From IMG/VR virus record IMGVR_UViG_3300042477_000480, positions 1-64,000 of that record: 64,000 nucleotides of DNA; one strand, given 5' to 3'. This DNA is from a virus. Of the stretch, positions 426 through 44,408 are shown one piece after another (within the stretch, counting starts at the first letter, position 1; each line of letters begins with the position of its first letter). A program made the translations under genes and the position numbers. The notes under the pieces were generated by a model, which ran no database searches, had not been told where the DNA came from, and saw only the letters and a list, made by a program, of their open reading frames with translations.

Positions 426-1542
426 CGTTAGGTTCTCCGGTCATGTACTTAGAAAACTGTACATCAAGCTCTTTTGTCGGATCTTCAGCGGTCAACAGCG
501 CGGCCGCCAGCGCATACGATTCTGTTCCGTCTCCAAGCAAATCGGCGATGGCCGACAACAAATCGTTCTTGGCGTTTTCTCTCTGCCCCAGCCGCCGCAC
601 AGTATCTAGTCTGTTCGGCAAGGCCTCGCAAAACACGTGGGCCGACTCGCCAATAGACGTGACGAGCCGTAAATACGCATCGGGCAGCTGCTTGTCAAAT
701 TTGATGCGCACAATTGGTTTGGCGATTTCAGCCGGAAGAACCTCAAACTCTTTTACGTCTTTAATGTCTCTCGCCAGATCGCCGGCGCAAAGACGGTCTA
801 GCAGTTCCTGCTCGCGCACAACGTAATTCAAAAACGGCCGCGTCTTTAACGGAATCGGCCTGAAGTCAAACGCGCCGGTAGTCTCGCGACCAATTACAAA
901 GAAAAACTTTTCCTTGCTCTCGCCGCAATCCTGCATGCAAATCGAGCCCGGCGACAGCATTCGTATTGGCCTGCCCTGCGCGTTTAAACCTTCCACAGTT
1001 TTTGTCACGTGAAAGTCGCCGGCCAGTACGGTGCGAACGTGATGTACGTCTGTCAGCTCGCACTCCGTTCTGCCGATCTCACCCATAAAGTCTTTCCACA
1101 CCTGATGCGTGATCAGAATCTCTGTGTCCGGGTGCACGTTGGCCAGCTCGCGCTGAATGTCGCCCCGCGGTAACCAGTCCAGCCCGGCGACCGCGGCGCC
1201 ATTGATATCAAACAAACCCTGCAGGTGCATGTGCCGCGGCCAGCTGTGCACGCTCAGCCACGGCGCATTGCGATCATACTCGTGATTGCCTTGAATGTAG
1301 TACACGGCCAAATCAGCCGCTTGCATGCGACTGAGACCTTCGCACAACTTGGCAATCGGGCGGGCTGAGTTGCTCTTCTTTTCGAGCACATCGCCGCCAA
1401 GGATCAGCGGTAACTTGTGGCGGACGCAGTAATCAATAATCTGGTTAAAACTGTAATACGCGTCGCCGTAAATGCTCGGTCGAGTAGACCAAGCGCCGTC
1501 TTCAAGATGAAGATCGGCCGTAAACACAAAAAGAGGCTCCAC
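367..1542 (-). CDS. SbcD/Mre11-like (gp47-type) metallophosphoesterase nuclease
   Basis: A 391-residue protein with the full set of calcineurin-like phosphoesterase motifs: DLH at residues 10-12, GGD at 49-51, GNHE at 85-88, TH at 145-146 and GDFH at 175-178. These bind the two catalytic metals in Mre11/SbcD nucleases. The start is GTG, preceded by AGGAG seven bases upstream. It is translationally coupled to the SbcC-like gene downstream. Together they should form the phage DNA-end processing complex. The length matches phage gp47 proteins. Acting as a nuclease is well supported by motifs; the exact substrate is inferred. Confidence 0.88.
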   Translation of the reverse strand: MEPLFVFTADLHLEDGAWSTRPSIYGDAYYSFNQIIDYCVRHKLPLILGGDVLEKKSNSARPIAKLCEGLSRMQAADLAVYYIQGNHEYDRNAPWLSVHSWPRHMHLQGLFDINGAAVAGLDWLPRGDIQRELANVHPDTEILITHQVWKDFMGEIGRTECELTDVHHVRTVLAGDFHVTKTVEGLNAQGRPIRMLSPGSICMQDCGESKEKFFFVIGRETTGAFDFRPIPLKTRPFLNYVVREQELLDRLCAGDLARDIKDVKEFEVLPAEIAKPIVRIKFDKQLPDAYLRLVTSIGESAHVFCEALPNRLDTVRRLGQRENAKNDLLSAIADLLGDGTESYALAAALLTAEDPTKELDVQFSKYMTGEPNDAALEIRSEELGAPSTPCV

Positions 1543-1575
1543 ACAATACTCCTATCACAAAATACGGCCATAGGT

Positions 1576-2208
1576 TTAATCCGTTTCGCCGTACTCGTCG
1601 GTGTAGTACTCGTCGTCATCCTCGTCGTCTTCTTCCCAATCGTCGTCGTCAGAATAGTACTCGATAGTGGCGTTGAATTTGAACGTCTGTGGCGGCAGAT
1701 TCCAATGCGATAACGGATCGTCTGCCAACGGATATTTTTTGTTGTGCGGCGAAAACAGTTTAAACGCTGCATTCAAATAACTGCTCAAAAGATTGGGCAG
1801 TTTTGTTTTGTCTGCTTTTTGCAGCGTCTTGAACATCTCGACGAGCATTTCTGGCTCGCCGCTAAACCAACCCTCGTCTTTTTTGCCGGCGGGGGTTGGC
1901 GACACCACCTTGAAAAAAGACAGCGTGAACAGATCTGCCAATTCTTCGTCGGTGGGGCTTTCGGCTATTTTTTTAGCTTTTGCGCGATGTTTTACGCTCA
2001 GCGCGTGCAGCGATTGCTCAAACTCAGCTTGCATTTCTTGCAGTTCTTTTGCCGCCCTTGTTGCATCAACTACGCAACGAATCCCAAGGTCTGTGGGATT
2101 CATCAGCGCCAGAACAGACTGCAATACGTGATACTCGCGCTTCATGGCGCGCACGTATACCCGAATAAACGCTATTTCAGCTTGAGTGATTTTATGCGGG
2201 TTGAACAC
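1576..2208 (-). CDS. Protein of unknown function with highly acidic C-terminal tail
   Basis: About 210 residues from a GTG start at 2208, chosen because AGGTG lies just before it and it clears the upstream gene; a TTG start at 2229 is also open. The N-terminal two thirds look helical and charged (KHRAKAKK region). The last 30 residues are almost all Asp, Glu and Tyr. I do not recognise the family. An acidic tail of this kind occurs in DNA-mimic and single-strand-binding proteins, but nothing else supports either role. It sits directly upstream of the SbcCD-like pair, so a link to recombination is possible by position only. Confidence 0.7.
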   Translation of the reverse strand: MFNPHKITQAEIAFIRVYVRAMKREYHVLQSVLALMNPTDLGIRCVVDATRAAKELQEMQAEFEQSLHALSVKHRAKAKKIAESPTDEELADLFTLSFFKVVSPTPAGKKDEGWFSGEPEMLVEMFKTLQKADKTKLPNLLSSYLNAAFKLFSPHNKKYPLADDPLSHWNLPPQTFKFNATIEYYSDDDDWEEDDEDDDEYYTDEYGETD

Positions 2209-2215
2209 GCAGCAC

Positions 2216-2434
2216 CTAAGCGCCAGCAAGACCTAAAAAAGACGTTTCAGGAATAGAGACAGTATTCAGCAATTCGTTGAACCCGTGCTCTGTCCAGTCA
2301 ATTTTATAGTGCGTTTGTTTTTTCGCAACAGCAATGGCGAGTACCGTCACAGCCATTGCGGGTCTTTGGCCTATTTTTAACAGCAACCGATCGCCGATTT
2401 TGTACAGCGGTGTTACGTCCTGTTTTGCCGCCAT
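2216..2434 (-). CDS. Small hypothetical protein
   Basis: 72 residues from ATG at 2434. The protein starts with a basic patch and a segment (residues 10-35) that alternates polar and hydrophobic residues like a small beta-barrel, ending in Ala/Gly. No family is recognised and no clear Shine-Dalgarno precedes it. It is packed seven bases after the stop of the upstream gene, which suggests co-transcription and perhaps coupled translation. Confidence 0.55.
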   Translation of the reverse strand: MAAKQDVTPLYKIGDRLLLKIGQRPAMAVTVLAIAVAKKQTHYKIDWTEHGFNELLNTVSIPETSFLGLAGA

Positions 2435-2440
2435 ATGTTG

Positions 2441-2677
2441 CTACAGTTCGCAATCGGTCGTCGCGGCGTGTTCGTCAAGGTTGAACGCTGCTTTAAACGT
2501 ATCAAATGTCTTGTCAACACGAATGCGCGTCATTACTGCAACACCAATTAAAGCATTTACAATTTCATCAATGTCAATGTCGTCTTTTTCTAGTATGCGC
2601 TCTACAAGCAGATCAAGATCATCTGCCGTGTTGTAGATATTTGTAATGTCCGTCTCTAATTGAAATCTATCAGCCAT
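2441..2677 (-). CDS. Small acidic hypothetical protein
   Basis: 78 residues. The ATG at 2677 is preferred over an upstream TTG at 2689 because GAGG lies seven bases before it. The protein is rich in Asp, Glu and Ile and looks all-helical. It ends TDCEL, close to the MTDCEL start of the coiled-coil protein at 3130, which may be coincidence. No family is recognised. Confidence 0.6.
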   Translation of the reverse strand: MADRFQLETDITNIYNTADDLDLLVERILEKDDIDIDEIVNALIGVAVMTRIRVDKTFDTFKAAFNLDEHAATTDCEL

Positions 2678-2866
2678 GATTAACCTCAAAAATAACGTAG
2701 CCCGTCGTCAGCCTCCGAATTGACCGGGCGGGAATTGCACCCGCTATGTACCTCACCACCACGCTGTGTATATCGCCGCGTCCGGCTAGGTCAAGCACGG
2801 GGCTGTTGGGTACCGGCACACCAAAGTGCCGCTTTAGTCGCTGTCACTAAAGAGCCGATCAAAATG
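2678..2866. other. 189-base gap with several short hairpins, possible degenerate tRNA
   Basis: No gene is supported here. Read on the minus strand, the gap holds CTTTAGT/ACTAAAG with a 7-base loop (2831-2851), GGCAC/GTGCC (2814-2829), and GCGGG-TGCAATT-CCCGC (2728-2744), which looks like a tRNA T arm. TAGCCGG and CCGGTCA around it pair at five of seven positions (plus one G-T wobble), as a weak acceptor stem would. D and anticodon arms cannot be drawn convincingly, so I do not call a tRNA. It could be a tRNA remnant or another structured RNA. Confidence 0.35.
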
Positions 2867-3130
2867 TTATTTTGTTCTCTCCAGCAGCGCAAGAAGCGTG
2901 TCAACATCTTTGCGCCAACCGTGTTGATCCAACCAAAACGCAACTCGATCAATCGCCTCCCGCTCCTCGTCCGTGAGCGTGGCGTCCATCGTCACCGTCA
3001 CGTTCCCGTCGCACACTGACAGCGTAGCGTCTTGATCGGCGAGGCGGCGGATGGCCTCGCGGTGCTTCTCTAATTCTTCCGCCAGTAATTTGTTCTCTGT
3101 GCGGAGATTTGTAAGTTCGCAGTCAGTCAT
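2867..3130 (-). CDS. Small coiled-coil hypothetical protein
   Basis: 87 residues from ATG at 3130 with GGGAG about nine bases upstream. Residues 5-35 form a likely coiled coil (heptads with Leu). This is followed by a short beta-like stretch and a helical tail. Its start overlaps the stop of the zinc-finger protein upstream by eight bases, suggesting translational coupling. No family is recognised. Confidence 0.65.
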   Translation of the reverse strand: MTDCELTNLRTENKLLAEELEKHREAIRRLADQDATLSVCDGNVTVTMDATLTDEEREAIDRVAFWLDQHGWRKDVDTLLALLERTK

Positions 3131-3383
3131 CGCGCGTTACTCCCTGTAAACGCAAGTCAGAATTTGCACCCATTGTTGCCGCCATACTTCGAAACTGTTC
3201 GCGTTGCATAGCCATAAAAGTCTCGTTTGATACTTTGCGCACCATCATGTTGATACGCGCCGGAATCACAATATTGTTGTCGCAGTCGTTGCAGCAGCGC
3301 CCGTGATTAACCGGCGCCGCGTTGTTGCCAGAATCCCAGCCGTTGACGCTGGGAATGTCGTTGAAACAGATTGAACAGAGCAT
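3123..3383 (-). CDS. Small cysteine-rich zinc-finger-like phage protein
   Basis: 86 residues. CSIC at residues 3-6 and GRCCNDCDN at about 28-36 give a C-x2-C plus C-C-x2-C arrangement expected to bind zinc. The pattern of CxxC, then GW..GxNA.PVN.GRCC..C, then VIPAR, is one I recall from many small phage proteins of unknown role. ATG at 3383 has GGAG nine bases upstream. Its function is unknown; nucleic-acid or protein binding is only a guess from the zinc motif. Confidence 0.75.
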   Translation of the reverse strand: MLCSICFNDIPSVNGWDSGNNAAPVNHGRCCNDCDNNIVIPARINMMVRKVSNETFMAMQREQFRSMAATMGANSDLRLQGVTRDD

Positions 3384-3402
3384 TCAAAACTCCACTAATT
3401 TG

Positions 3403-3666
3403 CTACCACTCACCAGAATGAAAACGGCTGCCGTGATACGCCGCATCAGTTGATTCTTGCGGAGAACCGCCATACGAACGTCGCGAACCCCCGCGCAAAC
3501 ACATATCGCACCACGGACCAGAGCCGCGAAACTCTTCAATGAGTTTTTTGGCATCGACGGTCATTTTGTCGTTGCAACCTTTGCAGTACGCATAAAACAG
3601 CCCGTCTGGTTTTGCTCGCCTTTGAGCAAATTGAACAAGTTGCACTTCTGTGTTGTCAGCGCTCAT
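3403..3666 (-). CDS. Small CxxC-containing hypothetical protein
   Basis: 87 residues from ATG at 3666, with a clear GGAGG four bases before it. It carries CKGC (residues 28-31) and CDMC (53-56), a four-cysteine zinc-ribbon-like layout. The C-terminal third is Gly/Ser/Arg/Tyr-rich and probably disordered. It is the first gene after tRNA-Gln on this strand. The family is unknown; the zinc ribbon is inferred from the cysteine spacing. Confidence 0.7.
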   Translation of the reverse strand: MSADNTEVQLVQFAQRRAKPDGLFYAYCKGCNDKMTVDAKKLIEEFRGSGPWCDMCLRGGSRRSYGGSPQESTDAAYHGSRFHSGEW

Positions 3667-3677
3667 AAACCCTCCAA

Positions 3678-3748
3678 ATGCCCGACTAGGATTCGAACCT
3701 AGACAAAGGGAACCAAAATCCCTTGTGCTACCGTTACACCATCGGGCA
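3678..3748 (-). tRNA. tRNA-Gln (anticodon TTG)
   Basis: Read on the minus strand this folds into a standard 71-base cloverleaf. The acceptor stem is seven perfect pairs (TGCCCGA/TCGGGCA) and the D stem is GTGT/GCAC. The anticodon stem AGGGA/TCCCT carries the loop TTTTGGT (anticodon TTG), and the T arm is CTAGG-TTCGAAT-CCTAG. The 3' CCA is not encoded. U1-A72 is usual for glutamine tRNAs. Confidence 0.95.
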
Positions 3749-3768
3749 ACCGGGTTACCCCGAAAACG

Positions 3769-4041
3769 TTAATCTTTGTCTATTGTGTTGACGTTGTCGT
3801 TAAAGCTGACGAACTCGCCACCTTCGCCGTCAAACAATATGCCGGGTTCGCCGGGCATGTCAGCCGTTGCACGCCGTGCGTATTTAGTTAGAAACCGATA
3901 AATGTCGCGGCCGCGTTTTTCGCCGTACTTGAGGCAGAGTAAAGCTTTGACCGTCAAATACTCCTCAAAGCCAGCCTCCTCGTTTTCCTCGGCATAAAGA
4001 TTGTCGTCGTTCAGGAACTCGCCGAAGTCAAAATTTGTCAT
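3769..4041 (-). CDS. Small hypothetical protein
   Basis: 90 residues from the ATG at 4041, preferred to an upstream in-frame start at 4077 that would overlap the previous gene. The N-terminus is acidic; the middle has an Arg/Lys-rich helix (residues 40-60). No family is recognised. It lies between a long hypothetical gene and tRNA-Gln. Confidence 0.6.
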   Translation of the reverse strand: MTNFDFGEFLNDDNLYAEENEEAGFEEYLTVKALLCLKYGEKRGRDIYRFLTKYARRATADMPGEPGILFDGEGGEFVSFNDNVNTIDKD

Positions 4042-4046
4042 GAAAA

Positions 4047-5201
4047 TTAATCCAGTATGTTGAGCACTACCGCGCATTGCGGTAGCGGAAATAAGTAAAC
4101 ACCGCGCGCAGAAAACTGCCGCGGATACTCTAGCCGCATCACAACGTTATCGTCGTACATAAGGCGGGCCACTACGTACGACCCTGTGACGGCGGTCAGC
4201 GCGTCAAGCACAACGACAAACTCTGTGCCGGGCACAGCAATTCGGACCGATGCGCCGTGCGGACCAGTAGCGCCAGTGACTCCAAGATTAGCAGCTTCAG
4301 TTGCTGCGTCAATGACCGTCTCTAATGACGCCACGGCCGAACGCTGCGCAGACACAAGCATTAGCTGGCGCGAAAACGCTACCGTGGCTGCAGCTGTCAG
4401 CGCTGCGGCTTTTGCGTCGTTCAGAACGGCGAGGATTTTGAGATCCTTTGCCGCCGCGCCGCAGAAAGCCAATAACGCGGGGCAAACCTCGGCATAGTCT
4501 TCTGCCGTATTTGTTACGCGTACCGATTCGTCGTCTTTTGCCCGCGTCACAAACTCGCCGCTCTCAAGAATAATATGCCACGTATTTGTACCGTTATCGA
4601 ATGCGATGCCGCGTAAAGACGGGCCCATGTCGCCGTTAGGCAGCGCGTCACGAAATACGACAAGGCTGGCTTCAAGCTCGGCGGCAAACGTGTCAGTAAA
4701 ACCAAACGCGGCTGGCTTAAAAACGCGCGCCAACATGCGCTCGTTGTATACCTCGGGCGCCACGACCGGCTCGGCATAAAACGATTTGTTTTGCGCCAGC
4801 TCGGCAATCTCTGCGATCACAGCGTCGAACAGGTCGGCAGGATTGATGTCCTGCGACATTAAGCCGTCGCCAATCATATCTGAAAATACAGCCAGCGCTT
4901 CCAGCAATACAGCGTCTACCTGCTCGGGTTTTGCGCCGTACTGCGCTGCTACCTGCTTGCCGCGGCCAAGCGTTGCCTGCGTAATCGAAAAAGGCAGTGC
5001 GCCCCAGTTTGTACTGCCGGCTGCCTGTGCAAACTGCCCAAGTGCTTTTAGAAACGCTGGATTCTTTGCCGGCATCTGAGACTGACGAAATAGCTCAAGC
5101 GTGCAAGCGGCAAGTGTGAGTTTTTGTTGGGCAGGTGCGTCAAAACTATCTAAGAACTTTTTAATCGTGACTGATGTTTTCTGTCGTGGTGCAGTTGTCA
5201 T
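4047..5201 (-). CDS. Long hypothetical protein next to the HTH/DHS-like fusion
   Basis: 384 residues from ATG at 5201 (a GTG at 5231 is also open). The protein is Ala-rich and mostly helical at the N-terminus. Near residues 300-330 there is a TGATGPHG stretch, then a beta-rich C-terminus. Its start overlaps the end of the upstream HTH/DHS-like gene by 41 bases, so the two are likely coupled. No domain is recognised. Because of the overlap and order it is the best candidate partner of that fusion protein, but this is inference from position alone. Confidence 0.7.
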   Translation of the reverse strand: MTTAPRQKTSVTIKKFLDSFDAPAQQKLTLAACTLELFRQSQMPAKNPAFLKALGQFAQAAGSTNWGALPFSITQATLGRGKQVAAQYGAKPEQVDAVLLEALAVFSDMIGDGLMSQDINPADLFDAVIAEIAELAQNKSFYAEPVVAPEVYNERMLARVFKPAAFGFTDTFAAELEASLVVFRDALPNGDMGPSLRGIAFDNGTNTWHIILESGEFVTRAKDDESVRVTNTAEDYAEVCPALLAFCGAAAKDLKILAVLNDAKAAALTAAATVAFSRQLMLVSAQRSAVASLETVIDAATEAANLGVTGATGPHGASVRIAVPGTEFVVVLDALTAVTGSYVVARLMYDDNVVMRLEYPRQFSARGVYLFPLPQCAVVLNILD

Positions 5202-6354
5202 ATGAATTTGTTCCGCTAAATACTGCGTCACATGTGTGTAGAAGTGTGATTAAATTTGCGCGATATGCGCCGTCAAGTTTGTAACTGGTGCCGCCGTGGC
5301 TGCGAACGTAATTGTGAAAATCTGATTGAACATGGTTGTCGATAGATACGACTGTAAACGGACCTGCAGCGGCGCCGCAGGCTGTGGCACGCGCTTGCAA
5401 AAACATATGCAAGCCGCGCATAGCGTTGCCTATAAGCAGCACTACGCCGTTTTGCGTTGCACATAGCTGACGAACTTGCTCAGCAAATATCAAAAGATCA
5501 ACATACGTTGCAGCGCCAATAGCCGCGCCCAGCTCGGCGCCACGCACAGCCGGACCTGTATGCGCGCGCAATTCTCCCAGCTCGACATGCGCCGTGGCCG
5601 GAAGACCCAACGAATACGCGGCATGAAATAGGCTGCGCGCTTTGTTGTCTTTCGGTGCAAACGCCCATCGGCCTGTCGCCTCTCCGTATCCTATACCCTG
5701 CGCAGCCGCAAGGCGAGCAACGTGATTCAGATCTGGGGGCGTGTCTGGTCGCGTCATCTCAATGTCCGCCAGCAAACCGGCACCAGTCGTTGCCGCAGCC
5801 GTGGCGTACCGTTTGCGCAGCCATTCGGCGGCAACGATGCCGGCGCCGGCGTAGATAGCCTCTGCGCCGATAAACAATAAAACGTTGCTGTCTGCGCTGC
5901 GAGCGCAATGAACAGCTTTTGCTGCCAGTACGTGCGTTTCGGATGCTGTAGCCGGCGTGTCAACTACTTCAGGCGGCATTATTTGCGTCAACGGCCAAGC
6001 CGCTGTCTGGGTTTCAAAAACAGGAAAAGAACTTTCAAGCCTAAGCGGCAAATGTAACGACAGATCTACATCCGCTGTTGCGTGGGCAGACCGCATATCG
6101 CCGTCGCCCAAAAGTAACCACTCAAACCGGACATCGGTGAAGGCGACGACTTGCGCCAGTACTTCAGGCGTAACAGCAATCTCGCCAAGCAGAATGCGCG
6201 CCACATGTTTAGAGTCCAGCTGGATCGCCGCGGCGAAAGCGCGGACATCATTTCCAAACAACACAGCGCATACGTACTCAAGTCTCTGCCGCCATGGCTG
6301 ATTCGATTGACGTAGCTTGCGTTGTGTCCGTCTTCTCTTCGGCTTCTGTGACAT
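5161..6354 (-). CDS. HTH domain fused to deoxyhypusine-synthase-like domain
   Basis: 397 residues. Residues 20-90 resemble a phage-repressor/XRE helix-turn-helix domain: a FA..I..s helix pair, then the closing motif FEWLLLGDGDM, typical of Cro/CI-like domains. Residues 135-385 match, by pattern, a bacterial family related to deoxyhypusine synthase. The signs are LLFIGAEAIYAGAG, a GYGEATGR block, LPATAHVELG, GAAIGAATYVDLLIFAEQV, GVVLLIGNAM and an FTVVSID segment. In that family the usual DIIHMHP and PEVFLKA motifs are conserved; here they are altered (LRAHTGP, LHMFLQA), so catalysis is doubtful. The NAD-binding fold could serve as a sensor. ATG has GAGG seven bases upstream. Confidence 0.6.
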   Translation of the reverse strand: MSQKPKRRRTQRKLRQSNQPWRQRLEYVCAVLFGNDVRAFAAAIQLDSKHVARILLGEIAVTPEVLAQVVAFTDVRFEWLLLGDGDMRSAHATADVDLSLHLPLRLESSFPVFETQTAAWPLTQIMPPEVVDTPATASETHVLAAKAVHCARSADSNVLLFIGAEAIYAGAGIVAAEWLRKRYATAAATTGAGLLADIEMTRPDTPPDLNHVARLAAAQGIGYGEATGRWAFAPKDNKARSLFHAAYSLGLPATAHVELGELRAHTGPAVRGAELGAAIGAATYVDLLIFAEQVRQLCATQNGVVLLIGNAMRGLHMFLQARATACGAAAGPFTVVSIDNHVQSDFHNYVRSHGGTSYKLDGAYRANLITLLHTCDAVFSGTNSYDNCTTTENISHD

Positions 6355-7345
6355 GTTCGCGCCTCGCTTTAAATTGCTCCAGCAGCGATCGGCCTACACG
6401 TCGAAACACGCCGGTGCCGGAAACGGTGTGCATACCGTCTACAGCGCGCAAATACGCCGCAGTCAGTTCCGCATAACCAGTTAACAGTTCAATGGGATAC
6501 CGGTTGAATTGCCCCAACATAAAGTAAAAATCTGTGTCGGGAGAATCGTAGCAATCGGCAATTTTAATTGAACGCAGATACGTTACCCGCCCGCCATGCG
6601 GTCGAACGAGCGGCAGCTTGGTTTTAGGGTAGTGCAGCAAAAACTGTCGCGTCTCAATTATCCAGCCGGTGTCTGTCGGCACAACAGCTATGCGCCACAT
6701 TGACCCAAGCGTTTTTCGATTTAGCGCTTTTGTGCAGCGCTGATACAGCGAACGTTCGCGCCGAAGCTCGCCCCACAACAGGCGCTCATATTGCCCGACC
6801 TGCTCATGAGAGCAACCAAACACCGCGTCAAATCCGGGCGCCAAAAGAACGCGGCTAGTAACGCGACATGTGACAATAAGTTTTGTTTTAGCGTTGTGCT
6901 TACCGATCTGTCGAACTTTGTGCCGCACGCTCACATACTGCGCTTGACTGATACGTGCGAAACAGAACGGGCAGAAATACGACCGGTGACACGGACGAAA
7001 CACCTTTTCTTTCTTCCAATGAAAGTAGAGGTATGACGGCCGGCAGAACAGGCAGCGCTGAAACGATAGCGCAAAATTTTTCAGGTCAAAATCGGCCGCG
7101 TACGGGTCTAGCGCGCGAGAATGTGGAAACCACAGATTGCGGGTGGCCAATTCTTTTAATCGACGAGCCCAATGATTTCGCACTGTGTTCGTGCGCCCGA
7201 CTACCGCCCCGTGCGTTTTCTTGCCGTCTAGGTTTAATACAAATTGCTGCGCAAAAGTCTGAGACATCCGGCGCCCGACTCGCGCAATTTTCCACGGCCG
7301 CAATGCGTAGCGGCTGACATGCGCCACAAAATCGAACAGCGCCAT
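6278..7345 (-). CDS. Zinc-ribbon protein of unknown function, possibly replication-related
   Basis: 355 residues from ATG at 7345 (GGAG seven bases upstream). The N-terminus is very basic. Two cysteine clusters, CLFC near residue 98 and C-x6-C-x2-C (CHRSYFCPFC) near 120, should bind zinc, followed by more Arg/Lys. The layout of basic N-terminus plus zinc ribbon recalls plasmid and phage replication proteins, but no HUH, primase or helicase motif is visible. Its end overlaps the start of the HTH/DHS-like gene by 77 bases. The C-terminal tail is Glu/Thr-rich. The function is unknown. Confidence 0.65.
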   Translation of the reverse strand: MALFDFVAHVSRYALRPWKIARVGRRMSQTFAQQFVLNLDGKKTHGAVVGRTNTVRNHWARRLKELATRNLWFPHSRALDPYAADFDLKNFALSFQRCLFCRPSYLYFHWKKEKVFRPCHRSYFCPFCFARISQAQYVSVRHKVRQIGKHNAKTKLIVTCRVTSRVLLAPGFDAVFGCSHEQVGQYERLLWGELRRERSLYQRCTKALNRKTLGSMWRIAVVPTDTGWIIETRQFLLHYPKTKLPLVRPHGGRVTYLRSIKIADCYDSPDTDFYFMLGQFNRYPIELLTGYAELTAAYLRAVDGMHTVSGTGVFRRVGRSLLEQFKARREHVTEAEEKTDTTQATSIESAMAAET

Positions 7346-7360
7346 CAAAAACTCCACTGG

Positions 7361-7621
7361 CTATTTATGCCAATCGCCCATGTACCGCACGGCGATGTAC
7401 GTTCCTAAAAATGCGCCTATCGCCAACGGAATGAGATAGAGCGCGTTGTGCAGATAATTCATGACGCCGTACGCGCCTAAGCTATACAAGACAGAGCTAA
7501 TGACGCTCGCCGCTACCGCTTGCCGGCGGCTCACACAAATGACGTACAGCGCGTACAGGATGTCAAAAAAGACATAGACAACAAAAACTGTTGCAGCTGT
7601 CGCCCAATTAAAGTCGTTCAT
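7361..7621 (-). CDS. Small membrane protein with three predicted transmembrane helices
   Basis: 86 residues from ATG at 7621 (a TTG at 7633 is also open). Three hydrophobic spans are visible at about residues 6-25, 35-50 and 58-78. A short basic loop (SRRQ) follows the first span. It has a short soluble tail ending GDWHK. No family is recognised. It would sit in the host inner membrane. Confidence 0.7.
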   Translation of the reverse strand: MNDFNWATAATVFVVYVFFDILYALYVICVSRRQAVAASVISSVLYSLGAYGVMNYLHNALYLIPLAIGAFLGTYIAVRYMGDWHK

Positions 7622-7829
7622 TTTTCTGCTCAAACATTGCGTCGCGCACTGTTTGAAACAACTCCTCTCGTGTCATTGTGCCGGCGAGAAAAGCAGCTGC
7701 CGTATCACGCACGTTTTCAAAGTGCGCGACTTTTTTTCGCAGCGCCGCGATCGTTTGACTTTGTTTAATAAACCGCTGCTGCAGCTCAGTAAATTGCTGT
7801 GCCGGAACAGCATCGTTCACGTTTTCCAT
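7608..7829 (-). CDS. Small coiled-coil protein
   Basis: 73 residues from ATG at 7829, with GGAGG about ten bases upstream. Residues 12-45 form a predicted coiled coil (heptads of Leu, Ile, Val). It overlaps the next coiled-coil gene upstream (7817) by 13 bases and the membrane-protein start downstream by 14 bases. It may interact with its coiled-coil neighbour; this is inferred only from order and shape. Confidence 0.65.
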   Translation of the reverse strand: MENVNDAVPAQQFTELQQRFIKQSQTIAALRKKVAHFENVRDTAAAFLAGTMTREELFQTVRDAMFEQKNERL

Positions 7830-8122
7830 GCTGGTGAAGCCTCCGTGATTGAACTGTCTGCAGGAATATCAGATTTTGGAAATGGATTGTCCCATTCCAA
7901 CAACGTGCGCCGTTCTTCCCGCAACAGCGCTATCTCGTGACGCTGCGTTCGAATCTCGGTGCGCAACGATTGATTTACGTTTTTCAGATCCCGCACTTTA
8001 GCACGCAGTTCTTGCAGTTCTTCCGCGTGATCATGCAGCTCCGCAACTGCTTTTTGATATCTCAGTTCGCCTTTAAGCCGTAGTACCTCTAAACGCAATT
8101 TTGCCGTATCGGCGTCATCCAT
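7817..8122 (-). CDS. Coiled-coil protein
   Basis: 101 residues from ATG at 8122 with AGGAG six bases upstream. Residues 5-75 are one long helix with regular Leu heptads (ELHDHAEELQELRAK block), a clear coiled coil. The last 25 residues are Pro/Asp/Ser-rich and probably flexible. No family is recognised. With the next gene it forms a pair of coiled-coil proteins next to a membrane protein. Confidence 0.7.
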   Translation of the reverse strand: MDDADTAKLRLEVLRLKGELRYQKAVAELHDHAEELQELRAKVRDLKNVNQSLRTEIRTQRHEIALLREERRTLLEWDNPFPKSDIPADSSITEASPAWKT

Positions 8123-8144
8123 GACGGCTCCTACAGATAGTGGT

Positions 8145-8684
8145 TCAAGTTTCCTTGACGAAAATGCCTTCGGGCGTCAACCGGCCTTTGCGATCTTTAA
8201 TCGTTTTGTACGCCTCTTCAAGACACAGCCGCAAACTCATCGCGGGGTCGTACAGGTTTGCGCACAGAATAAGCGTAACAAGTACGTCGCCGATCCCGTC
8301 GACAACACCGTCGCCGTCATCTTTCAATAACGCGTCGGCTAATTCGCCCAGCTCTGACATCGTTTTCAGCAGCTGAACTCTTGGGTTGCTGTTCGGGATG
8401 ATGTGCCGATCCCGCGCCCACTGAATGACTTTTTCTTCCAACTCGGTAAATGATGGGTGCATGTTGTGCTTCTCCTTGTGTTTTTCTGCGGCATGCTCCA
8501 GCGCTTGATCATGCGCTGACAATAATTCAAGTGCGTAAAGCCTGAGCTGTTTTTGCAATTGCTCACGCTCTGGACGCAGCAAATTTAATAGCGCCAAAAC
8601 GCTACGCATTTCCTGCGCTGACAACTCGCCCATATGCAAGCGAATAGCTTGCTTGTCGCCGGCCCATATTGGTTCAAGATTCAT
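8145..8684 (-). CDS. MazG-like nucleoside-triphosphate pyrophosphohydrolase
   Basis: 179 residues. The C-terminal half (residues about 100-175) has the all-alpha NTP-pyrophosphatase pattern: K..SELGELADA, then DGIGDVLVTLI, then LCLEEAYKTIKDRKG. The Glu-x2-Glu and Gly-Asp acid pairs are the metal-binding residues in MazG proteins. The N-terminal 95 residues look helical and are unassigned. MazG proteins hydrolyse (d)NTPs to monophosphates; in phages they are thought to shape nucleotide or alarmone pools. The family call is good; the exact substrate is not visible. Confidence 0.8.
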   Translation of the reverse strand: MNLEPIWAGDKQAIRLHMGELSAQEMRSVLALLNLLRPEREQLQKQLRLYALELLSAHDQALEHAAEKHKEKHNMHPSFTELEEKVIQWARDRHIIPNSNPRVQLLKTMSELGELADALLKDDGDGVVDGIGDVLVTLILCANLYDPAMSLRLCLEEAYKTIKDRKGRLTPEGIFVKET

Positions 8685-9174
8685 TTACGTTTTCTTGCTC
8701 GGGCGCGGGTGTTTCTTCCGGCGGATCAACCGCGTCAGACATGCTCTCTAATTTGTTGCGTTGCAGTTCCATACGTTCGCGTACAAGTGCAATGCCTTGT
8801 GCGGCATCAGCAACCTCGACGTACGGTAATTTCTCTTTCAGGTGCTCCCACTTTGTCGGGCCTACGCCGGCAACATTAATCTCGCCCGGCGCTGCCTCCG
8901 CAAAGTCTTCCAGCAGCGCCACAGCCGTAGCGTCTTGCCGCGTTTGGAACACAATAATGTTGTTGTCTTTGTCGGAAAAGAATTTAACGCCGGTATCGTC
9001 GCAGATAACGTAACGAGCGGCTTCTTCGCCGGTATCGATATAGCGCACCGGCTTCATGTAGCTGTTGGCGTGCTTTGACGCTTCTGGCGAACAGCACCGT
9101 TTAAATTTCTGGCCACTGCCGCACGGGCAACGGTCATTACGTTTTACAAAGCTGTTGCGACGAATCGTTGTCAT
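8674..9174 (-). CDS. SEC-C motif (zinc-binding) protein
   Basis: 166 residues from ATG at 9174 with GGAGG four bases upstream. The N-terminus carries CPCGSGQKFKRCC (residues 17-29), the SEC-C zinc motif found at SecA C-termini and in many small proteins. The rest has no domain I recognise; residues 105-145 are helical and the last 15 are Glu/Pro-rich. It ends 11 bases inside the start of the MazG-like gene. SEC-C motifs usually mediate protein contacts; the partner here is unknown. Confidence 0.75.
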   Translation of the reverse strand: MTTIRRNSFVKRNDRCPCGSGQKFKRCCSPEASKHANSYMKPVRYIDTGEEAARYVICDDTGVKFFSDKDNNIIVFQTRQDATAVALLEDFAEAAPGEINVAGVGPTKWEHLKEKLPYVEVADAAQGIALVRERMELQRNKLESMSDAVDPPEETPAPEQENVNES

Positions 9175-9576: not shown

Positions 9577-10383
9577 TTAACTCCTCGCGAGGTTGTTCAC
9601 CCAGCGTGTTTTGATATGTTTAGTGCCTGTTGGGTACGCAAATATACTTTTGCGCTGCGCAACATTGGCCGGCTGATTTGCGCCATTGCAAAGGCGGCAC
9701 TTGTTGCATTGAATCAGTTTGTTTATTTGTTCGTTTTGATGCGGGCATAAAACTTCGTTTGCCGCGGGACCGTCAACGCCTACACGATAGTGGCGCCAGC
9801 CAAGCGCCGCTGCACGGGGCATATCCTCGACGCGGTGCACGCTGGCCATGTAGTACGGCCGATAGGCCTGATACTCGGGTTTCATCCATTGCTCGGTGAA
9901 ACCGGTGTAGTTGCGACGCGATACGGTAACAAGTCGTTCCACAATTTCAAGCGGAATCAAAACCGGATCTCCGTAGGCGCCAAAGCGTACGCCCTTTGCC
10001 GCCACAATTCTGTCGTGGCGGTCTGGGTCGTAGTCCGGGTAGTTTCCGTTCTTGTAAGCGTTCCAGACCATCCGCGGCGCTTGATGCAGCTTGACGTAGC
10101 AAACCTGCACGAGCTTGCAGTCGCCGCAGACCAGCCGGTGCAAACCGCCGGCTCGGGCCTCTGTCGGCTTGAGCTTGTCCGCAAACAGCCAAACCTGACA
10201 CGTGTCGCCCGTTTTGCGGTTGGTAGAGGTAAACGTCATCAGGATCACAATCTGGCTGTCAGCGTCGCTGGCGCCCTCTGGGGCCCAAGGACTGCGGCCG
10301 CGGTACAGCACACAGCCCGAAACTGTCTCCTGCCGAAGTTTGCGTTTTTTACGGGCTTTTTGCGCTTTTTTCGTGATCGTCAT
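9577..10383 (-). CDS. Conserved phage/bacterial cysteine-containing protein (DUF7227-like pattern)
   Basis: 268 residues from ATG at 10383. The order of motifs matches a family I recall from many phages. It runs STNRKTGD, then CGDCKLVQVCYV (four Cys), QAPRMVW, YK.G.YP, VRFGAYGDP, TGFTEQW, a MASVHR segment, GW...RV, and a second set of cysteines (CPHQ...QCNKCRLCNG). Two metal clusters, zinc or iron-sulfur, seem likely. I believe it is the family called DUF7227, whose function is unknown; the name is from memory. The N-terminus is very basic (KKAQKARKKRK). Confidence 0.7.
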   Translation of the reverse strand: MTITKKAQKARKKRKLRQETVSGCVLYRGRSPWAPEGASDADSQIVILMTFTSTNRKTGDTCQVWLFADKLKPTEARAGGLHRLVCGDCKLVQVCYVKLHQAPRMVWNAYKNGNYPDYDPDRHDRIVAAKGVRFGAYGDPVLIPLEIVERLVTVSRRNYTGFTEQWMKPEYQAYRPYYMASVHRVEDMPRAAALGWRHYRVGVDGPAANEVLCPHQNEQINKLIQCNKCRLCNGANQPANVAQRKSIFAYPTGTKHIKTRWVNNLARS

Positions 10384-10862
10384 TGTCCTATCTAAAATCA
10401 GCGACATTGGGGGGTAAAATGACCCCAAAATCTGTCGCAAATCGTTGAGGCCACATGACTTACGCTGCGCGCTTTACGCAAATTTTGTCCGATTTATGCG
10501 GACCTAGTGTAGGCTTCGCCTACAAGGTAGTTCTTTCTTAGAATTTTTTATTGGTAGCAGATGATCGGGGGCTGTTTGATTAGGCAGTTAAATACTGCCT
10601 TTTCAAATAGCGCCCCAATACGTTGTAATAAAGACCCCAACAGCCGAATTGCACGGCTACACCACAGGGCATGAACCTTTAGTGACACGCGTTTGGGGTG
10701 ACCAGTCTGTTTTCTGCGGAGTTCGGTAACGCAGCACGTGGAACAGACAAGTGAGTCCAGCTTTACTGGTCAAGAGGCTGCTGGACAAGCACTGGATATC
10801 AAAAAAAAAGACAACGGTAGGGGCGGGTAATTAAACCCGCCCCTACGCGTTTATCTTATTGT
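10384..10862. other. Structured non-coding region of about 480 bases
   Basis: No reading frame is credible here. The stretch is packed with short inverted repeats: TTGGGG/CCCCAA (10409-10434), GTCCG/CGGAC with a 7-base loop (about 10488-10504), GTAGGC-TTC-GCCTAC (about 10509-10523), GGCAGT/ACTGCC (about 10581-10597) and AGCCG-7-CGGCT (10642-10658). A 74-base module follows, with TGACCAG/CTGGTCA ends (10699-10772) enclosing TCTGTT/AACAGA and CTGCG/CGCAG. It could be a non-coding RNA, a leader or a replication origin. It separates two leftward gene blocks. Confidence 0.5.
10801..10846 (-). terminator. Strong intrinsic terminator (leftward)
   Basis: A perfect 12-pair hairpin (10817-10846, loop AATTAA, GC-rich stem) is followed on the minus strand by TTTTTTTTT (10809-10801). 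It lies just past the stop of the ParB-like gene at 10863 and should end that transcript. Confidence 0.85.
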
Positions 10863-33406: not shown

Positions 33407-33409
33407 AAG

Positions 33410-33482
33410 AGCCGGCGGCCGGACTCGAACCGGCGACCTGCTGATTACAAATCAGCAGCTCTACCAACTGAGCTACACCGGC
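33410..33482 (-). tRNA. tRNA-Thr (anticodon TGT)
   Basis: Read on the minus strand this is a standard 73-base tRNA. The acceptor stem is GCCGGTG/CGCCGGC (one G-U pair) and the D stem is GCTC/GAGC. The anticodon stem GCTGA/TCAGC has the loop TTTGTAA (anticodon TGT), and the T arm is GCCGG-TTCGAGT-CCGGC. CCA is not encoded. Confidence 0.95.
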
Positions 33483-38116: not shown

Positions 38117-38190
38117 CGTGGCGTAGAGCAGTCTGGTAGCTCGCCAGCCTCATAAGCTGGAGGCCGTCGGTTCGAATCCGACCGCCACTA
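38117..38190 (+). tRNA. Initiator-like tRNA-Met (anticodon CAT)
   Basis: A 74-base cloverleaf on the plus strand: D stem GAGC/GCTC, anticodon stem CCAGC/GCTGG with loop CTCATAA (CAT), and T arm GTCGG-TTCGAAT-CCGAC. The first acceptor pair is a C1-T72 mismatch and the D stem holds A11-T24, both marks of initiator tRNA. But the anticodon stem lacks the three G-C pairs normally needed. This makes it an initiator-like tRNA of unclear use. CCA is not encoded. Confidence 0.85.
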
Positions 38191-41931: not shown

Positions 41932-42747
41932 CTATGTTACGAGAACGGGAGTGACGTTACCTGTGGTCGCATAATCGCCGTAGCCGCTCACATTTACGGC
42001 AGCCACGCGAAATTTGTAGGCTGTGCCGTTTGTCAAACCTGTGACCGTAAACGCTGTGCTGGTCGATATGGGGCGTGACACGGTTGTCCAGCTAGGCGTA
42101 CCAGCGGCTAGTGTTTTTTGTACCTGATAATCCGTGATAACCGCGCCGCCATTATTTGTCGGGGCAGTCCAAGACAGCGCGACCTGTTGATTACCCGGCG
42201 TGGCAACAAGGTTAGTTGGAGCGGCCGGTGCTACAGGAGGCACGCCAACCCACGACTGCCCACCCGGAAGTAGATCGTCGGCGAGATCGAGCGTGTCTTT
42301 TAGGCGCTGTACGTCTTCCAGCACGTTTTCAATAAATGACTCGACTTCCGCGCGAGACCGGAGTAAAACGTCGACATAGTTCAGGCGAAACCATTCTGGC
42401 CGGTAATTCGGAATGGGGTCGTCTTCAGGGTACTCTTCGAGATCGGTCGGCGAGCAAACGTGATCAAACGCGCCTACACGCTCGTCTTCGCCCGGTTTCA
42501 TGGGGAGCAGCAGGTACGCAAAGATCTTTTCGGGCATCAGCATTGCGTCGCTGGCCGTGATGCGCACCCGAATGCCGTCTACGCTGTTGAAGTTATACCG
42601 GCTTACCTGCCACGTTAAACGCACGTGCCGCCCGTTCGATGGTTGGGGCGGTGGCGTGGCGATTACGGGGTCATAGAAATTAAGCCCCAGCGTATCTGGA
42701 AGCTCAATGACGCCTTCGATGGGTGTTGGGTCGCAATTAGACGGCAT
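41932..42747 (-). CDS. Virion-type protein with C-terminal fibronectin III domain
   Basis: 271 residues from ATG at 42747 with GGAGG upstream. Residues 1-170 are unassigned beta-rich sequence. Residues about 180-270 form a fibronectin III domain (P.NL.A.PGNQQVALSW.AP, TNGTAYKFRVAAVN). Such domains are frequent in phage tail and capsid decoration proteins and bind host surface sugars or proteins. It heads the virion gene block. Confidence 0.75.
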   Translation of the reverse strand: MPSNCDPTPIEGVIELPDTLGLNFYDPVIATPPPQPSNGRHVRLTWQVSRYNFNSVDGIRVRITASDAMLMPEKIFAYLLLPMKPGEDERVGAFDHVCSPTDLEEYPEDDPIPNYRPEWFRLNYVDVLLRSRAEVESFIENVLEDVQRLKDTLDLADDLLPGGQSWVGVPPVAPAAPTNLVATPGNQQVALSWTAPTNNGGAVITDYQVQKTLAAGTPSWTTVSRPISTSTAFTVTGLTNGTAYKFRVAAVNVSGYGDYATTGNVTPVLVT

Positions 42748-42748
42748 G

Positions 42749-43024
42749 TTATTCCTCCGGCAGCACTCGGCCTGCAATTGTTACTTGTCCGGGCGTTGTT
42801 GAGCGTACGTAACCCAGCGCCGCGCCATTGATATCTGTAACGCCGGGCTGGGTGATGGTCGCCGTGCCTGACGTTACGAGTAGCTCTACCTGTCTTCCGG
42901 CGACGGGTAAATCATTGTGGTCGCGCAGCCGGACTCGTATAGCCGCTGACGCAACCCCATCTGCCGCCACGTGTGGTTTTGTGGCATACAGGATCTTTGA
43001 GTTTTCCGGGCTGACATAACTCAT
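42749..43024 (-). CDS. Ig-like (invasin/intimin type) domain protein
   Basis: 91 residues from ATG at 43024, overlapping the upstream stop by four bases. The segment DGVASAAIRVRLRD...LPVAGRQVELLVTSG, then GYVRSTTPGQVTIAG, fits a bacterial Ig-like (Big_1-like) domain as in invasins and phage structural proteins. It is short, with a single domain, and probably decorates the virion or a fibre. Confidence 0.65.
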   Translation of the reverse strand: MSYVSPENSKILYATKPHVAADGVASAAIRVRLRDHNDLPVAGRQVELLVTSGTATITQPGVTDINGAALGYVRSTTPGQVTIAGRVLPEE

Positions 43025-43436: not shown

Positions 43437-44408
43437 TCAGACAGACGCAGATGCAGCTTCGCGGATAGCGGCGCGAAGAGTTGCGTTGGTCTGTACCGCG
43501 ATAATCAATTGCGCAAGCGTTAACTCGCCGGCTGGCCCGGACGGACCTGTCGGGCCTGTCGCGCCAGCTGGACCGGTCGGGCCTTGTGGGCCTGCCGGGC
43601 CTATTGCGCCGGGATTACCGCATGGCCCCGTCGGCCCCATCTGGCCGACACCTGACGCCCCCGTTGGACCGATTGGGCCCTGTGGCCCAGCTGGTCCTGT
43701 CGGGCCAGTGGCGCCTTTTGCGCCGCTCGGGCCTTGGTCGCCGCGGAAACCGCGTAAACCAGTTGGTCCGGACGCGCCTTGTGGCCCCTGCTGGCCTTGC
43801 GGTCCTTGCGCGCCTTGCGGGCCGGCAAGGCCCTGCGGCCCTATTAAGCCCTGTAAGCCCTGCGGGCCTGCGGGACCTACCGGACCACGTAAACCTGTTG
43901 GACCGGTCTGTCCGCGCGTCCCAGACGGCCCAGTGGGGCCTGTAGGGCCTGTGGCACCTTTAGCGCCACTTGGCCCAGTGGGACCTGTCGGGCCGCGTGG
44001 ACCTGTTGGGCCGGTCGGGCCGGTTGGGCCTGTAGGGCCTGTTGGCCCCGTAGGTCCGCGAAGACCTGTTGGGCCGGTCGGACCAGTCGGGCCGGTTGGG
44101 CCTCTATCGCCTGTTAATCCCGTTGGACCGGTAGGCCCCGTAGGTCCGGTAGGACCGCGTGGCCCAGCTGGTCCTGTCGGGCCTGTAGCGCCTTTGTCGC
44201 CTTTAAGGCCCTGCAGTCCGCGCGCACCTTGTGGCCCGCGTGCGCCGGCTGGTCCTGTAGGTCCTTGCGGCCCGGCTGGGCCTGCTGGCCCCGGCGGACC
44301 TTCCGGGCAAATTCCACAGCCGCCGGTAGTCGCGGCGAGTATTGGGCCGTCGTACGGTACGACAACGGGCTCAAAGTCGGGCGACTGATTTTGTGTTGTG
44401 TCATCCAT
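43437..44408 (-). CDS. Collagen-like fibre protein
   Basis: 323 residues from ATG at 44408. Residues about 40-300 are Gly-X-Y repeats, mostly GPTGPT and GPAGPQ, as in bacterial and phage collagen-like proteins. The N-terminus is short and polar; the C-terminus is a short helix ([14 protein letters not shown]). Such proteins form triple-helical fibres on tails or virions. The next gene upstream has a similar collagen part. Confidence 0.85.
43520..44320. repeat. Collagen Gly-X-Y repeat tract in DNA
   Basis: Low-complexity DNA with many copies of GG(C/A)CC(T/C)GT-like 9-base units coding Gly-Pro-Thr/Ala. It can also be read as an opposite-strand open frame with many prolines, which is an artefact. 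It may be prone to slippage or recombination with the tract at 44620-45645. Confidence 0.8.

Follow-up and report, generated by a model that had tools for sequence, protein, structure and literature searches.

The gene at positions 5161 to 6354 (minus strand) of the window, by which we mean the whole 64,000-nucleotide stretch of phage DNA analyzed here, encodes a 397-aa protein in which a helix-turn-helix (HTH) domain is fused to a degenerate domain of the GSU2086/deoxyhypusine synthase (DHS) fold, as seen from its open reading frame (ORF), its relatives and a structural model. On balance, we think it probable that this protein is a phage transcription regulator, composed of a lambda-repressor-like HTH and a catalytically retired GSU2086 domain. 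The fused proteins carry both domains, have lost the family motifs and are conserved as a unit, and unfused versions are present in related phages. The initial annotation had proposed a regulator rather than an enzyme, and this is the likelier reading, given that none of the family motifs is intact in the seven fused copies aligned.

The ORF runs from an ATG at 6354 to a stop at 5161, as first annotated. It is not a chance ORF, because the same full-length fusion is found in ten IMG/VR contigs besides the window, at 52–58% identity. No match to the fusion was detected among 50,697 reference phage records, in line with the earlier remark that no such fusion was known from described phages, and a narrow literature search found no described HTH–DHS-fold fusion. 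The source virus record of the window comprises 203,206 bases and belongs to a phage family of about 200 kb; the terminase of that record is distant from those of cultured phages (about 31% identity at best). The fusion protein begins with a basic arm (residues 1–18; 6301–6354, minus strand), identified by charge count, the net charge of the first 25 residues being +10 in the window and +5 to +10 across six fused proteins. The arm is followed by a repressor-type HTH (residues 19–88; 6091–6300, minus strand), a fast-evolving linker with low pLDDT at residues 95–99 (residues 89–138; 5941–6090, minus strand) and the GSU2086/DHS-fold domain (residues 139–381; 5212–5940, minus strand).

The profile search and fold check that the initial annotation had proposed for the C-terminal part gave matches to one protein family and to a wider group of structures. 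NCBIfam GSU2086 (NF052581) matched the fusion with an E-value of 1.2e-26 and a score of 94 bits, below the family cut-off of 250. Profile-profile comparison (hhalign) of six fused phages with GSU2086 gave 99.9% (E 2e-31) and of GSU2086 with DHS 91.8%, while the fused proteins compared directly with DHS gave a weak 6.9%. For Foldseek searches we used an AlphaFold2 model of the 397-aa protein (pLDDT 84.7), whose input alignment included GSU2086 homologues. All 26 PDB matches at E < 0.001 were to DHS, the AgrE/ArgZ C-terminal domain, or 3c2q, a relative of the latter. The closest fold was the C-terminal ornithine cyclodeaminase domain of AgrE/ArgZ (6lrg; E 4e-6, about 12% identity); unlike AgrE/ArgZ, the fusion has no N-terminal hydrolase and has an added HTH. 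Several DHS structures were also matched (best E about 4e-5, TM 0.5 on target). The fusion shares with DHS the fold and the first glycine-loop segment (TTGAG on the first strand), but it differs in lacking, in alignment with an archaeal DHS (L106), the catalytic-lysine segment (SWGK in that protein). The Pfam DHS family (PF01916) had no match in the window, and the best fused relative reached 15 bits vs. a cut-off of 27. A plain DHS was ruled out by this result together with the absent lysine segment. By these sequence comparisons, the domain at residues 139–381 is not DHS itself but a diverged GSU2086 relative, and the GSU2086 family is in turn a relative of DHS and AgrE. Of the originally suggested kinship with DHS, the fold thus held, whereas the closest family proved to be GSU2086.

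The motifs of the GSU2086 family (GAH, NGA..HD.E, GxFGxWxET, GxDI, PEVxLKA, and RPxKT) are all altered or deleted in 7/7 aligned fused copies, and an enzyme is therefore unlikely. All seven have lost H165, N190, H196, D262 and, within PEVxLKA, both E and K; the GxFGxWxET loop and the RPxKT block are deleted, and E199 is kept in the window alone. The lost motif positions are each about 90–100% conserved in unfused members, which are mostly cellular. In the alignment, the glycine loop TTGAGLLAD of the window (5764–5790, minus strand) stands at the N-G-A-x-x-I-H-D of the family, with N and H lost. Two further changes had been pointed out already in the initial annotation and are borne out by the alignment: LRAHTGP (5551–5571, minus strand) occupies the place of DI[IV]HEHP, within the family’s GxDI[IV]HEHP, and LHMFLQA (5392–5412, minus strand) that of PEV[YF]LKA. 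Among the positions conserved in unfused members, many glycines and framework residues have been kept in the fused copies (G170, G191, D197, N210, G222, H256, G260, G280, D286, G303, and G309).

Of all segments of the fusion, the DHS-like part is conserved best, and it is therefore under selection and not decaying. Mean amino acid identity between fused copies is 70% for this part, 64% for the HTH and 47% for the linker, and the corresponding mean dN values are 0.23, 0.27, and 0.53; synonymous differences are close to saturated. In the aligned sequences, the fused clade has its own set of polar residues that do not vary, e.g., R229-W230, E258, E261, E274, R313, H341, Q343, and H353, and they suggest a new binding site or interface. 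These data also bear on a rather unlikely alternative, in which the DHS-like domain is only a structural platform for oligomerization and the protein is a ligand-blind repressor or a DNA-organizing protein. DHS is a known tetramer, the family motifs are all altered or lost, and the domain retains its glycine framework but not the positions that align with pocket residues, all of which would fit a platform. Yet its rate of evolution does not exceed that of the HTH, and a mere scaffold would not seem to require its invariant clade-specific polar residues.

The first 90 or so residues had been annotated as a phage repressor-type HTH, and the assignment is supported by matches of residues 19–88 to PHROG repressor/HTH families (E about 6e-4). 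An HTH-only profile built from six phages matched the HTH regulator 4ich in the PDB (E 8.6e-5), with two non-HTH chains only about tenfold worse (7e-4 to 9e-4). In the AlphaFold2 model this region forms five short helices (21–33, 37–43, 48–55, 63–72, and 77–82), and viral structures matched by the model were mostly CI/XRE repressors, at E 0.01 and above, with no match in that viral fold search below E 0.001. The helices of the model and the repressor fold matches together correspond to the five-helix lambda-repressor-like fold. The single window sequence did not reach the Pfam HTH_3 cut-off (13.2 vs. 23 bits). The fusion shares this HTH with phage CI/XRE repressors but differs from them in its second half, which is DHS-like instead of peptidase-like or a C-terminal half for dimerization. 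No conserved DNA, operator or promoter was found in the region upstream of the operon, and no target was found. This result, and the net charge of the HTH, which is near zero (−2 to +2), would fit an HTH co-opted for protein-protein contact, as in an anti-repressor or a host-factor-binding protein, and not for DNA. We regard such a role as improbable; the HTH of the window keeps the repressor-like end WLLxGxGxM and matches phage repressor families.

The initial annotation had also read the NAD-type fold as a sign of metabolite sensing. Rex, a redox repressor, consists of an HTH plus an NAD-type fold, and a Rex-like NAD(H)-sensing protein would be a special case of the regulator that we favor. 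The fold matches to NAD-dependent DHS and to the NAD-bound AgrE structure 6lrg, as well as the DHS-like TTGAG loop, speak for it. We nevertheless consider NAD(H) sensing quite improbable, and the alignment speaks against it. Where the archaeal DHS homologue has its HD histidine, the window has Ala196, and Leu262 stands at the GxD aspartate of the family (both by alignment only); the RPxKT block is deleted, and so is the segment with the counterpart of the catalytic lysine. The residues lining the DHS pocket are taken as such from background on DHS and from the alignment. The GSU2086 family itself is not known to use NAD. The fusion and Rex have in common the idea of an HTH with an NAD-type fold, while the HTH and the Rossmann domain of the fusion are different and, in the alignment, the NAD pocket positions are not kept.

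The neighborhood of the gene is conserved. At the fused loci examined, the order of genes is kept: a Cys-rich gene, the fusion, a gene for a 394-aa protein, a 102-aa gene and a metallophosphoesterase. In the window these neighbors are all on the minus strand, at 6278–7357 (359 aa, with RPCxxxxxCPFCxAR), 4047–5231, 3769–4077, and 367–1542, respectively; the Cys-rich and the 394-aa genes are conserved in all fused phages examined. The fusion overlaps its upstream neighbor by 77 bases and the downstream one by 71, and the overlaps in five relatives checked are 50–131 bases by our start calls, an arrangement that suggests translational coupling. The overlap with the downstream gene had been noted at the outset for a 384-residue product, put forward as a possible partner; it is found both for the 394-aa form starting at a GTG and for the 384-aa form starting at an internal ATG. 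The 394-aa protein contains a GATGP stretch but had no meaningful family match and no PDB match, and its model (pLDDT 52) was too poor to use. For the Cys-rich protein, no PDB match was obtained and a Rep_1 match was only at chance level. A role in anti-phage defense was considered and rejected, as PADLOC gave no match for the fusion or its neighbors. Elsewhere in the window we noticed a collagen-repeat protein (43437–44408, minus strand; Pfam Collagen, 3.7e-41) with an fn3 protein close by at 41932–42777, a protein matching phrog_2554 (9577–10440, minus strand; 4.2e-42) and three phage tRNA genes (Gln, 3678–3748; Thr, 33409–33482; Met, 38117–38190).

In cells, GSU2086 genes are in most cases found close to genes for HldE-like kinases. 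Profile matches were obtained in 165/392 and 243/395 sampled genomes of two bacterial phyla, and among the matches listed from these 787 genomes none spans both domains. An HldE-type kinase gene was present in the fetched flanks of 62 of the best 80 cellular GSU2086 loci; the flanks of 67 held a comparable gene of the kinase, SIS or HAD type. No HTH fusion was seen at these 80 loci, as judged by where in each ORF the domain lies; a few ORFs have N-terminal extensions, which were covered by an HTH profile run over all the loci together, with nothing significant found. A plasmid search returned two weak matches, both to unfused GSU2086 genes of the ordinary kind that lie in sugar operons. In the collections searched, the fusion is thus confined to one phage lineage. 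A transposon study in Geobacter lists GSU2086 between hldE (GSU2085) and gmhA (GSU2087) and reports an electrode-growth phenotype (PMC5585712); we found no reported reaction for the family.

Two phages, G011 and G013, encode unfused GSU2086 proteins. Their terminases share 58% and 52% identity, respectively, with that of the window, and they are therefore relatives of its phage. The G011 protein (locus L125) scores 311 bits, above the family cut-off, and that of G013 scores 238 bits, just under it; both keep the family motifs. The gene order at L125 is similar to that of the fused loci: a weakly related Cys-rich gene precedes unfused GSU2086 (profile E 2e-4, the sole match among 4,458 ORFs), which is followed by HldE (E 6e-98) and, as in the fused phages, a metallophosphoesterase (E 3e-67). 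The stretch 657–8902 of this record (IMGVR 3300010883_000017) holds a sugar-pathway cassette in which HldE and unfused GSU2086 are accompanied by a dTDP-glucose 4,6-dehydratase-like gene. G013 carries a more distant HldE. In six fused records searched we found neither HldE nor a second, unfused GSU2086 copy, the contrast in HldE being one of two unfused vs. six fused records, some of them fragments. Compared with the GSU2086 family, with which it shares the domain along residues 139–381, the fusion has altered motifs, two deleted loops and an added HTH, and it occurs without HldE in these six records. It is very unlikely that the protein has remained an enzyme, working through a newly formed active site and using its HTH for localization or protein contact, since the strongly conserved new polar residues and the basic N-terminal arm that could speak for it are set against the loss of the family motifs, the deletion of two motif-bearing loops and the result that the six fused records searched contain no HldE or similar partner from the sugar pathway.

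In the tree, the two unfused phage proteins group together (SH-aLRT 94) near Planctomycetota sequences, and the fused clade sits on a stem of 4.4 changes per column, a branch too long for the tree to decide its placement; its joining the unfused phage proteins is compatible with the data (AU p 0.53). The probable ancestor of the fused domain is an unfused enzyme of the sugar pathway, like those that related phages still have together with HldE. Since relatives keep the unfused, motif-bearing enzyme, the fusion looks like an enzyme turned gene regulator. The parts that we infer are DNA binding, oligomerization, regulation, the existence of a ligand and the direction in which the gene evolved. 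Ancestral phages would have had a GSU2086 enzyme working alongside HldE; an HTH would have been gained at the N-terminus of such a protein, and the active site would have been lost in place. Most likely, dimers or tetramers form through the DHS-like domain, which probably also binds a small molecule, a sugar phosphate or nucleotide, in a rebuilt pocket. The HTH and the basic N-terminal arm would contact DNA, and binding of the ligand would change DNA affinity. We give less than even weight to a tentative further proposal, in which one lineage of phages converted an enzyme of its own sugar pathway into a ligand-sensing regulator and thereby founded a new one-component regulator class whose sensor has the DHS fold.

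Several families of regulators are built on a comparable plan. The effector domain is a SIS domain in RpiR, a sugar kinase fold in ROK and a sugar isomerase fold in CggR/SorC. The fusion has in common with them an HTH joined to an enzyme-derived effector domain and ties to sugar-phosphate metabolism, and by analogy it may work like them; it differs in having the DHS/GSU2086 fold and in occurring in phages, and it is not a member of any of these families. The RpiR-type NanR is reported to bind ManNAc-6-phosphate (PMC12713135). An HTH with an enzyme-derived sensing domain is an established design, of which the version with the DHS/GSU2086 fold would be a new variation.

Conversions of enzymes to regulators usually rest on distant homology. 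In this case, the fused, motif-altered form and the unfused, motif-bearing form are both present in related phages, one of them with a similar gene order, so that the gain of the HTH, the loss of the motifs and the loss of HldE are each open to comparative and biochemical tests. The finding hints at a sensor fold that may be new to phage regulation and draws attention to the GSU2086 family, which is widespread in the sampled genomes of two bacterial phyla.
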